Shown piece by piece: positions 47,995 to 51,420 of a DNA stretch of 64,000 nt. The stretch is from Paremcibacter congregatus (GTDB taxonomy: Bacteria > Pseudomonadota > Alphaproteobacteria > Sphingomonadales > Emcibacteraceae). The DNA is taken from assembly GCF_006385135.1 (NCBI RefSeq), contig NZ_CP041025.1, positions 1,891,501-1,955,500 of the forward strand. Reading direction: 5' to 3'. The notes under the pieces were generated by a model. It was not told where the DNA came from and made no database searches. It worked only from the letters and a program-made list of their open reading frames with translations. The stretch's first letter is position 1; every line of letters begins with the position of its first letter. The position numbers were made by a program, and so were the translations under genes.

Positions 47995-48519
47995 TTATTT
48001 TGCCTGTGGCAGGTTAAATTCTTCAGCAACGGCTTCGTAGCGGGCCTTGAGTGGCGCTACGACATCGTTGGTTGTCTTGGTCGCAGCTTCGTTGAATTTC
48101 GTAGCTTCAGCAACGAAATCATCATAGCGACCTTTAAGCATACTGGTCTGAAGTTCAAAAAACTCGGCCGGTGTTTTCGCCGCAAACAATGTTTTCACAT
48201 CGGCCACGTTTTTCTCAACAGCCGCTTTTGTGGTTTCCACGAAATCGGCATTCACAGACTGGGCTGTTTCCGCTGCGATTTTGCTGGATGCCACCAGGGC
48301 TTCATAATTGGCTTTGTTAAAGGCTGTGACTTTTTCAAAACCTTTTGTGGCTTCCTGAGTAGCCTGTTTCACTGAATCCTGGGCCGCCTTAGTCGCGGTC
48401 TGAACAGTTTCCTGGGCTGTTTTAGCCGCCTGCTCAACAGTTTCCTGTGCAGCTTTAAAAGTAGCGTTTTCTGTAGTTTTGGCGTTAGCCGTTGTCTTTG
48501 ATGCTGTAGCTTTGGTCAT
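47995..48519 (-). CDS. phasin family protein
   Basis: A 174-residue Ala/Thr/Lys-rich helical protein of the phasin_2 type that coats polyhydroxyalkanoate granules. Residues 1-60 are low-complexity repeats such as AAQETVEQAAKTAQETVQTA. The family core has NKANYEALVASSKIAAETAQ and KTPAEFFELQTSMLKGRYDD. Two ATGs (48525 and 48519) follow AGAGGAAT; I use the second for spacing. Two matching operator-like sequences bracket its promoter. The PHA synthase is not in the window. Confidence 0.93.
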   Translation of the reverse strand: MTKATASKTTANAKTTENATFKAAQETVEQAAKTAQETVQTATKAAQDSVKQATQEATKGFEKVTAFNKANYEALVASSKIAAETAQSVNADFVETTKAAVEKNVADVKTLFAAKTPAEFFELQTSMLKGRYDDFVAEATKFNEAATKTTNDVVAPLKARYEAVAEEFNLPQAK

Positions 48520-48554
48520 AATCATATTCCTCTGTAAATGATATTCACAATAAA

Positions 48555-48683: not shown

Positions 48684-50081
48684 TTAAATGCTATGCACAA
48701 TGGGGGCTAAACCGGACAGGCCAAGATGATAATTCAGATGTGCAATGACAAGGTTCAGCTTATCAGGGCTTGCCGCTTCACAGCGGACAACAAGGGCGGC
48801 CTGGGTATTTGAAGGGCGCAGCAACCACCACCCCTGCTCCGATGTAACCCGCATTCCATCAATAGTGCTGACCTCATGGGTAGTTGAGTTGAGACGCGAC
48901 AGCACCTCTTCAATGATGATGAATTTACGCTTCTCTTCACAAAACAGTCGAATTTCAGGGGTCGACACCTGATGGGGATAGGCCGCCAGAAGCACCTGCA
49001 TGTTAGTTTTATGCCCGGCAAAAACATTCAACAACCGCAGTGCAACATAAATGGCGTCATCATAGCCATAGAACTGGTCTTTGATATAAATGTGACCACT
49101 GAGTTCTCCTCCCAGCAGGGCACCGGTTTCGCGCATTTTTTCTTTAATCAGAGAATGCCCGGTCTTCCACATCAGCGGCTTCCCGCCCAACTCAGCTATG
49201 CGGTTAAATGTCACCTGGCTTGATTTCACATCTGCGATAATGGTCGCCCCAGGAGTACGCTGGAGAATATCCTCGGCCAGAAGGCTGATGATGTGATCCC
49301 CCCAGATAATGCCGCCTTCCCGGTCAACCACCCCGATCCTGTCGCCATCGCCATCAAATGCAAACCCCAGGTCAAGCTTCTTTTCCTGCACCAATGTCTG
49401 AAGCTGCATCAGGTTTTCCGGAATTGTCGGGTCAGGATGGTGGGCGGGAAAAGTACCGTCTATCTCGCCATTAATGACATAATGCGTTCCCGGTAGCCGT
49501 TCTACCAAACGCGTCACCATTTCTGCGGCAGCCCCATGCCCGGGATCCCAGCCAATCTTAAATCCTTTTTCAGCCAGAAGTTTCAGGTCGACATCTTGCA
49601 AGAGGCGGTTCAAATAACGCCCCCGCAGATCAATATTCTGATACTTCCCCTGCCCGTGCCTGAAATCGCCATGGGCGGCCAGTTCCCCCAAGGCCGTGAT
49701 CTGGGCCCCGTGTAAAGCATTCTTCCCCAGCAATAACTTAAACCCATTGTCCTCAATCGGATTATGGGACCCGGTCACCATGATACCGCCATCTGCTTCC
49801 AGACTGAACACTGAATAATACAGCAATGGTGTCGGGCCACAGCCAATATCGATAACATCAATGCCTGTACTGCGCAGACCGGCAATCAGGGCCTCCGTCA
49901 ATTCCGGGGAACTCAGACGGCCATCCCGGCAAACCGTGACCTTCTGCCCCCCGGCCCGCAGCACTCGGGTTCCAAAACTTCGGCCAAGATAATCAGCATC
50001 CCGCACATTCAGTGTGTCGCCAAATCGCCCCCGGATATCATAGGCCCGCAAGATCGAAGGATCAAAGTGATGCTGTGTAAT
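48684..50081 (-). CDS. phosphomannomutase/phosphoglucomutase, apparent AUU start
   Basis: A 465-residue alpha-D-phosphohexomutase making mannose-1-P or glucose-1-P for polysaccharide precursors. The N-terminus HHFDPSILRAYDIRGRFG is the family start. The phosphoserine loop is GGIMVTGSHNPIEDNGFK, the metal loop is FAFDGDGDRIGVVD and the sugar loop is GGELSGHIY. No ATG, GTG or TTG lies at the proper start; the frame stays open to ATT at 50081, placed 4 nt after a strong AGGGGAGGAG. The only usual-type codon, TTG at 50051, would remove part of the conserved N-terminus and is 34 nt from the Shine-Dalgarno. Downstream of the J-domain gene. Confidence 0.88.
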   Translation of the reverse strand: MTQHHFDPSILRAYDIRGRFGDTLNVRDADYLGRSFGTRVLRAGGQKVTVCRDGRLSSPELTEALIAGLRSTGIDVIDIGCGPTPLLYYSVFSLEADGGIMVTGSHNPIEDNGFKLLLGKNALHGAQITALGELAAHGDFRHGQGKYQNIDLRGRYLNRLLQDVDLKLLAEKGFKIGWDPGHGAAAEMVTRLVERLPGTHYVINGEIDGTFPAHHPDPTIPENLMQLQTLVQEKKLDLGFAFDGDGDRIGVVDREGGIIWGDHIISLLAEDILQRTPGATIIADVKSSQVTFNRIAELGGKPLMWKTGHSLIKEKMRETGALLGGELSGHIYIKDQFYGYDDAIYVALRLLNVFAGHKTNMQVLLAAYPHQVSTPEIRLFCEEKRKFIIIEEVLSRLNSTTHEVSTIDGMRVTSEQGWWLLRPSNTQAALVVRCEAASPDKLNLVIAHLNYHLGLSGLAPIVHSI

Positions 50082-50085
50082 CTGA

Positions 50086-50095
50086 CTCCTCCCCT
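50086..50095 (-). promoter_or_regulatory. strong ribosome-binding site deciding an AUU start
   Basis: On the minus strand AGGGGAGGAG is followed by TCAG and then ATT-ACA-CAG-CAT. This is close to ideal anti-16S complementarity with 4-6 nt spacing to ATT. It is the main evidence for the non-canonical start of the mutase gene. Confidence 0.6.
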
Positions 50096-50107: not shown

Positions 50108-50557
50108 TTAGTCAATTTCTTCGAGTAAAATATCTCTTGCCTGATTCAGTTTGGTGGCGAAATAGTCCGATCCGCCCTGATCCGGATGCATTTTCATCAT
50201 AAGTTTATGATGAGCTTCCTTAATTTCCGCCCGCGAGGGCCGTCCTGTCAGGTCAAGAATGCTCAAGGCTTCATCTTTCGTCATTCGGCCCAGTGCCTGC
50301 GTCGACGCCTTGGAAGGTCTGGATGAAACCATAAACCGCCATAAACCGCCCTGTGCAGAGAAAAAAGCCAAACCACCCAGAATGGCCGCGACGGCAACAT
50401 TTCCCCGGATCAGGATCAAAAACGCCAATCCCCCGAGAACGACTGCGCCGCCATAGCGGAAAAGCAATGTCAGCTTAGGCGAGTTTGATTGCCTGATCAG
50501 CCGTGAAATCACGTAAACCAGAAAAACCAACCCGAGAATAATAAGGATATATGGCAT
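50108..50557 (-). CDS. membrane-anchored J-domain protein
   Basis: A 149-residue protein. Two or three N-terminal membrane segments (ILIILGLVFLVYVISRLI; YGGAVVLGGLAFLILI; VAAILGGLAFFSAQ) precede a C-terminal J domain at about residues 95-149. That domain contains the HPD tripeptide in HKLMMKMHPDQGGSDYF. It resembles the TIM14/Pam18-like or DjlA-like co-chaperones found in alphaproteobacteria. The start at the ATG at 50557; a TTG before it is in frame. It lies 26 bp before the mutase start and 8 bp after mipZ. Confidence 0.88.
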   Translation of the reverse strand: MPYILIILGLVFLVYVISRLIRQSNSPKLTLLFRYGGAVVLGGLAFLILIRGNVAVAAILGGLAFFSAQGGLWRFMVSSRPSKASTQALGRMTKDEALSILDLTGRPSRAEIKEAHHKLMMKMHPDQGGSDYFATKLNQARDILLEEID

Positions 50558-50565
50558 CAAGGCCC

Positions 50566-51420
50566 CTATTCTGCTGCTGCGGCGGCTTTATGCCAGCCCG
50601 CCAATTTCAAATCATCCATCAGACGGCGAATTTCTTGTCGCGCCGCCACATGGGACATGGTCATCTTCTGATTACCGCTATCACGGAAATCAACCAACGT
50701 CAGACCTTTGGGGAAAAGCTCACGGTAGATGACGCGTTCGCCCAATCCCGGGACATACCGGAACGCCACCCGTTTTTGCAGCTGGTTCAGAACCTCATGA
50801 ACCCGGCGCTTGTTTTTGGCATCCAGTGCCGATGTCCGATTGCGCATTACCACCCAATCAATGGTTCCCCGATCTTTCAGGGCGCGCTTCTTACGGGCTT
50901 CCCATACCATTTCGCTATACAGACTGAGTTTTTCCACCTGATAGGTATCCGGGTTGACCTTGGCCAACAAATCAACATCCACAAAACTGTCATTGACCGG
51001 AGTAATCAGGGTATCGGCGGACATATGGGCCACGCGGGACAAAAAGGTATCACTTCCCGGACAATCAATCAGAATATAGTCATACTCGTTTTGCAGGTTT
51101 CCAATAAGGGTCAAAAGGTTTTCTTCATCCTTCTGCTCCATTTCCGCGGCAGAGCCTTCTTCCGAACGGGGCAGAACATGCGCATCAGGCATGGTAAGCT
51201 TCAACCCGTGTTCAGCTGCGTAATCCTGACGGTTTTCAATATAACGGGCAAGAGACTTCTGGCGCGCATCGAGATCAATGATGGCAACCGTGAACCCCCG
51301 TTCCAGCAGGCTCACGACGATATGCATAGCGGAAGTGGACTTCCCTGATCCGCCTTTTTCATTCCCCACCACGATGATATGTGCACCGTTGTTTTTAGTT
51401 GTTTTCACCCCTTGGTTCAT
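50566..51420 (-). CDS. mipZ: division-plane positioning ATPase MipZ
   Basis: A 284-residue ParA-like ATPase that forms a gradient from the poles and inhibits FtsZ near ParB. It has the deviant Walker A in AHIIVVGNEKGGSGKSTSAM, IDLDARQKSLARY, Walker B YILIDCPGSDTFLSR and the MipZ-specific RNRTSALDAKNKRRV. It is restricted to alphaproteobacteria lacking MinCD. First gene of a minus-strand unit with the J-domain protein and the mutase, and divergent from a glucosaminidase gene. Confidence 0.97.
   Translation of the reverse strand: MNQGVKTTKNNGAHIIVVGNEKGGSGKSTSAMHIVVSLLERGFTVAIIDLDARQKSLARYIENRQDYAAEHGLKLTMPDAHVLPRSEEGSAAEMEQKDEENLLTLIGNLQNEYDYILIDCPGSDTFLSRVAHMSADTLITPVNDSFVDVDLLAKVNPDTYQVEKLSLYSEMVWEARKKRALKDRGTIDWVVMRNRTSALDAKNKRRVHEVLNQLQKRVAFRYVPGLGERVIYRELFPKGLTLVDFRDSGNQKMTMSHVAARQEIRRLMDDLKLAGWHKAAAAAE

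Follow-up and report, generated by a model that had tools for sequence, protein, structure and literature searches.

A probable AUU start codon in the pgmG gene of Paremcibacter congregatus

To our knowledge, only a handful of bacterial genes have documented AUU starts. A phosphohexomutase gene of Paremcibacter congregatus appears to begin with ATT; it lies in a window of 64,000 nt (the whole stretch of DNA analysed, from whose first letter all positions in the feature lists are counted). Is this ATT a genuine start codon, a misread ATG, the mark of a decaying gene or not the start at all? If the base is right, a metabolic enzyme joins the handful, and the locus offers a natural example of a gene that, displaced by a distant paralogue, loses its good start codon with its frame still intact. 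Mis-annotation is another likely consequence, since gene callers that accept only ATG, GTG and TTG would put the start at the first downstream TTG or deeper.

The pgmG gene and its start region

The gene and the features around its 5′ end are as follows.

48684..50081, minus strand: pgmG, encoding phosphoglucomutase/phosphomannomutase PgmG, 465 codons plus TAA counted from ATT (Pfam, NCBIfam; motifs DGDGDR, TGSHNP, GELSGH and RPSNT)
50079..50081, minus strand: ATT (AUU), apparent start codon, aligned with the ATG of same-length orthologues and the sole start-like codon before the conserved N-terminus
50086..50095, minus strand: AGGGGAGGAG, Shine-Dalgarno (SD) sequence, −10.5 kcal/mol with the 16S tail CACCUCCUU
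50049..50051, minus strand: TTG, first conventional alternative start, without an SD (+0.6 kcal/mol); its use would drop the conserved H-x-F-x-x-x-I
50112..50114, minus strand: TGA closing the pgmG frame upstream, as read from the sequence

The gene product is PgmG, a predicted phosphoglucomutase/phosphomannomutase. Translated from ATT, it carries the Pfam domains PGM_PMM I–IV of a four-domain phosphohexomutase, the enzyme family named in the sequence-only reading, and scores 639 bits against the NCBIfam model PgmG (NF046027, curated equivalog cut-off 600), covering model positions 2–456 of 460. The phosphoserine loop TGSHNP, the metal loop DGDGDR, the sugar loop GE(L/M)SGH and the phosphate-binding R-x-SNT all fall in invariant columns. 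The protein is like other NF046027 members in its full four domains with active-site motifs and in the family-wide synteny of its gene with mipZ and a dnaJ-like gene; unlike them, it shows 52–56% identity to the family orthologues, evolves faster and has ATT where others have ATG. The codon usage of pgmG is average and its frame is intact.

Read on the minus strand, the frame has the TGA at 50114-50112 as its upstream limit and ends with the TAA at 48686-48684. After the TGA it reads CTA AAA CGC GAT TAC CAG GGG AGG AGT CAG ATT ACA CAG CAT CAC TTT GAT CCT TCG ATC TTG, with no in-frame ATG, GTG or TTG between this TGA and the TTG at 50051. The SD sequence AGGGGAGGAG ends 4 nt ahead of ATT and its GGAGG lies 6 nt ahead, a working distance such as a functional AUU start would need. 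With the 16S tail taken from the same genome, the SD–16S duplex is −10.5 kcal/mol for the pgmG ATT vs +0.6 kcal/mol for the TTG at 50051. Duplexes as strong are found at ∼3% of 435 ATG genes of the genome and at 0.6% of random sites; among the 30 pgmG genes compared, this SD is the strongest, beating those of all 29 orthologues. For mRNA structure at the pgmG start nothing above chance level was found. The initial description of the start region (an apparent AUU start, no ATG or GTG at the 5′ end, a strong and well-placed SD) is thereby borne out, its coordinates and distances included. ATT is the only plausible start codon as the frame reads, and pgmG probably has an AUU start.

Two further candidates were considered and rejected. 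Among the other upstream codons (CTA, AAA, CGC, GAT, TAC, CAG, GGG, AGG, AGT and CAG), AGG alone is one base off ATG, but it lies within the SD. A frameshift fusion to the upstream dnaJ-like gene would have to join different frames at a junction where no slippery site was seen, and the two are separate genes in orthologues.

Translation from the TTG at 50051 would shorten the protein by ten residues. TTG is among the normal start codons, the AYDIRG motif would be retained, and the alignment with AlgC structures starts only at residue 8 of the ATT-started protein. Yet this TTG lies 34 nt past AGGGGAGGAG and has no SD of its own, and the conserved H4, F6 and I10 would go. The peptide HHFDPSI, encoded between ATT and TTG, is the only 7-mer among 1,352,273 translated in the sampled genome that reaches its own score against the orthologue profile, and this best fit indicates that the ancestral start lay upstream of TTG. 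The earlier objection that a TTG start would trim a conserved part thus agrees with the profile, and we give such a start very little credence; it would make neither of the N-terminal peptides MTQHHFDPSILR and TQHHFDPSILR. The conservation of the N-terminus is a record of history, not proof of present translation.

Start codons of orthologues and the identity of the base

Aligning orthologues at the start codon had been proposed as a check, and it places ATT on the position of ATG. Among the pgmG genes of 29 relatives belonging to the same family and order, 28 start with ATG and one with GTG, a few codons ahead of the conserved H-x-F. The distance from the start to L-R-x-Y-D is the same in several orthologues (MTKHVFHSTVLREYDVRG, MTAHTFHSTVLREYDIRG vs ITQHHFDPSILRAYDIRG of P. 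congregatus), hence ATT falls on their ATG; by sequence comparison it occupies the homologous position, and the conserved N-terminus offers no canonical start, as expected of a functional AUU start. An alignment-based search yielded 80 named loci with 74 assignable starts, namely 54 ATG, 16 GTG and 4 TTG (left out were a long-N-terminus AlgC-like form whose start could not be assigned and five loci that were not located). Neither the 29 relatives nor these 74 loci contain an orthologue with an AUU start. A single-protein search of the genome contigs found no relative, and the genomes searched hold no orthologue closer than the family ones.

The canonical codons in all orthologues with assignable starts speak for a sequencing or assembly error, T for G, in which case the codon is really ATG and pgmG an ordinary, well-translated gene. 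AUU starts are very rare, as the sequence-only reading had remarked: AUU replaced AUG in 1 of 61,358 reconstructed ancestral AUG starts (Belinky et al. 2017, PMC5622118). A real switch therefore has a low prior itself, ∼1.6e-5 per gene, which is on par with finishing errors and makes an error a serious rival. On the other side, the genome is a single contig, 98.8% complete, with no N in our sample, and an error would need to have hit the start of precisely that gene of the locus which congeners have lost and which evolves fast. Three things, the single-contig assembly, the relaxed constraint described below and the SD, count towards a real base, although none of them is proof; we regard an error as unlikely, while giving it serious weight.

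Loss of pgmG in the genus and CpsG-type phosphomannomutases

The neighbours of pgmG that bear on its history are listed below.

50108..50560, minus strand: dnaJ-like gene, upstream of pgmG and 26 nt ahead of ATT; its DnaJ domain falls short of the Pfam cut-off, and relatives have the same neighbour
50566..51420, minus strand: mipZ, syntenic neighbour, serving as locus marker and rate yardstick (synteny, rate comparison)
47995..48525, minus strand: phasin gene, found directly after the dnaJ-like gene in congeners without pgmG (synteny)

Since mipZ, the dnaJ-like gene and pgmG adjoin one another in other genera of the family (loci L100, L102 and L104), pgmG is ancestral at this locus. Protein search did not detect it in 15 congeners, several of whose genomes are incomplete; in 14 of the 15 the phasin gene comes straight after the dnaJ-like gene, and the contig of the remaining one ends too early. 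Most congeners without pgmG have a CpsG-type phosphomannomutase instead. Across 60 relatives, 38 have pgmG only, 15 a CpsG-type gene only and seven neither (Fisher p 3e-8, ignoring shared ancestry), a pattern that comes largely from one genus, though CpsG-type genes without pgmG also occur in two genomes from a different genus and in one from a different family. The mutual exclusion suggests repeated displacement of one gene by the other. Set against these relatives, P. congregatus is the one genome with both types; against NF011943 (cut-off 801) its two CpsG-type genes reach 810 and 760 bits. The loci listed for the exclusion are L198 (3021-4388) and L199 (3189-4565), for genomes G000-G060.

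On the branch of P. congregatus, pgmG has accumulated 0.78 substitutions per site vs 0.255 for mipZ, and eight of 127 otherwise invariant PgmG columns are changed, all conservatively. The constraint on pgmG looks relaxed yet not absent.

Could pgmG then be an incipient pseudogene, its start codon just lost, AUU of no useful use and the frame open only through recency? The loss in 15 congeners, the accelerated branch with its eight changed columns and the presence of two CpsG-type genes point in this direction, and a stop-free frame survives 40% of the time at 2% neutral substitutions per site. A decaying gene would fit poorly, however, with the retained strong SD, the intact catalytic motifs, the conservative nature of every change in the invariant columns and the average codon usage, and we hold this reading to be decidedly unlikely.

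The explanation that we prefer, and think probably right if by no means safely so, is a genuine AUU start that gives low-level, full-length PgmG from an intact, vertically inherited gene and is tolerated through partial redundancy with CpsG. The ancestral AUG would have turned into AUU, and the unusually strong SD would set the ribosome on this codon in the cell, where the initiator tRNA would pair with two of three bases. The discriminating factor would be IF3, as reported for infC and Streptomyces sigR (PMC5472188); it would reject most AUU complexes, so that initiation would be IF3-sensitive and the yield of full-length PgmG reduced to a low level. Such a weak start may be tolerated because two CpsG-type phosphomannomutases, presumed functionally redundant with PgmG, are present and because congeners have lost pgmG. 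Most likely, this pgmG persists, weakly translated, where the closest relatives have lost the gene, and is not a purpose-built regulatory switch.

Non-AUG starts in the genus and in known systems

A precedent in the genus for non-AUG initiation is the AUA-started infC. infC was found in 15 genus genomes, and every one of these genes opens with AUA downstream of GCAGGAGGAA, a stop codon standing immediately before the AUA; an ATG at codon 6 is absent in three genus members (L032, L036 and L039). The arrangement resembles the established autocontrol of IF3, except that AUA replaces AUU. The infC loci are L031 (G000:C1:376340-376843, minus strand) and L032-L045.

An IF3-limited AUU start whose SD was strengthened to match, with PgmG output tracking the IF3 level along with the AUA-started infC, we consider improbable. 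The bolder proposal of the sequence-only reading, adaptive control in which AUU holds PgmG under IF3 and so ties sugar-nucleotide supply to translational state, can point to the AUA-started infC, which implies IF3-sensitive codons in the genus, to a pgmG SD strengthened like that of infC, and to the GTC start of Streptomyces sigR, shown by experiment to be repressed by IF3 (PMC5472188). But no relative has AUU, the gene is absent from congeners, and nothing indicates that the amount of PgmG is important in the presence of CpsG. A start under IF3 control of the infC or sigR type would be expected to keep its codon across relatives; for pgmG these have 28 ATG and one GTG, and the gene was not found in the 15 congeners. 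With AUU in one genome only and two extra CpsG-type phosphomannomutases at hand, the proposed coupling did not hold up, and adaptive control appears to us quite improbable.

Returning to the preferred low-level AUU start, one close likeness in the literature is to Staphylococcus aureus cvfC1 (AUU), ccpN (AUA) and infC (AUA), which also combine a weak start codon with a very strong SD; the S. aureus genes differ in that relatives share their start codons (as stated for cvfC1 and ccpN) and in that these were mapped by ribosome profiling (PMC13009471). There, in poor medium, the yield from AUU and AUA starts with extended SDs was ∼10% of that from AUG (PMC13009471). Stronger SDs are reported to accompany start-codon weakening as a trend, which for SD conservation is not significant in alphaproteobacteria (PMC5622118). 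Escherichia coli infC and pcnB, whose AUU starts are credited to Butler 1987 and to Binns and Masters 2002 as cited in PMC1780047, resemble pgmG as intact genes with AUU after an SD and a conserved N-terminus without a canonical start. According to the same secondary source they were experimentally tested, whereas pgmG encodes a metabolic enzyme and has AUU in one genome only. Streptomyces sigR shares with pgmG a non-canonical start outside infC and differs in its codon (GTC vs ATT), in encoding a regulator rather than an enzyme and in the experimental status of its IF3 repression (PMC5472188).

Within P. congregatus we sampled 1.68 Mb (∼40% of the genome, 1,069 gene-like frames), into which the infC locus was put deliberately. 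A very strong SD followed by an ATN codon, with no SD-bearing canonical start nearby, was found only at pgmG and infC; at weaker candidates, e.g. L085 and L060, a canonical start has an SD of its own. Hence AUU is not in general use, and the 1.68 Mb gave no sign of relaxed start-codon use in the genome at large. L085 (G000:C1:3900001-3920000) contains a frame of 269 codons in which AGGAGGAGAGAC precedes ACG ATA; eight codons further on stands an ATG whose own SD is weaker. The site is possibly another non-AUG start, with the ATG as the simpler reading.
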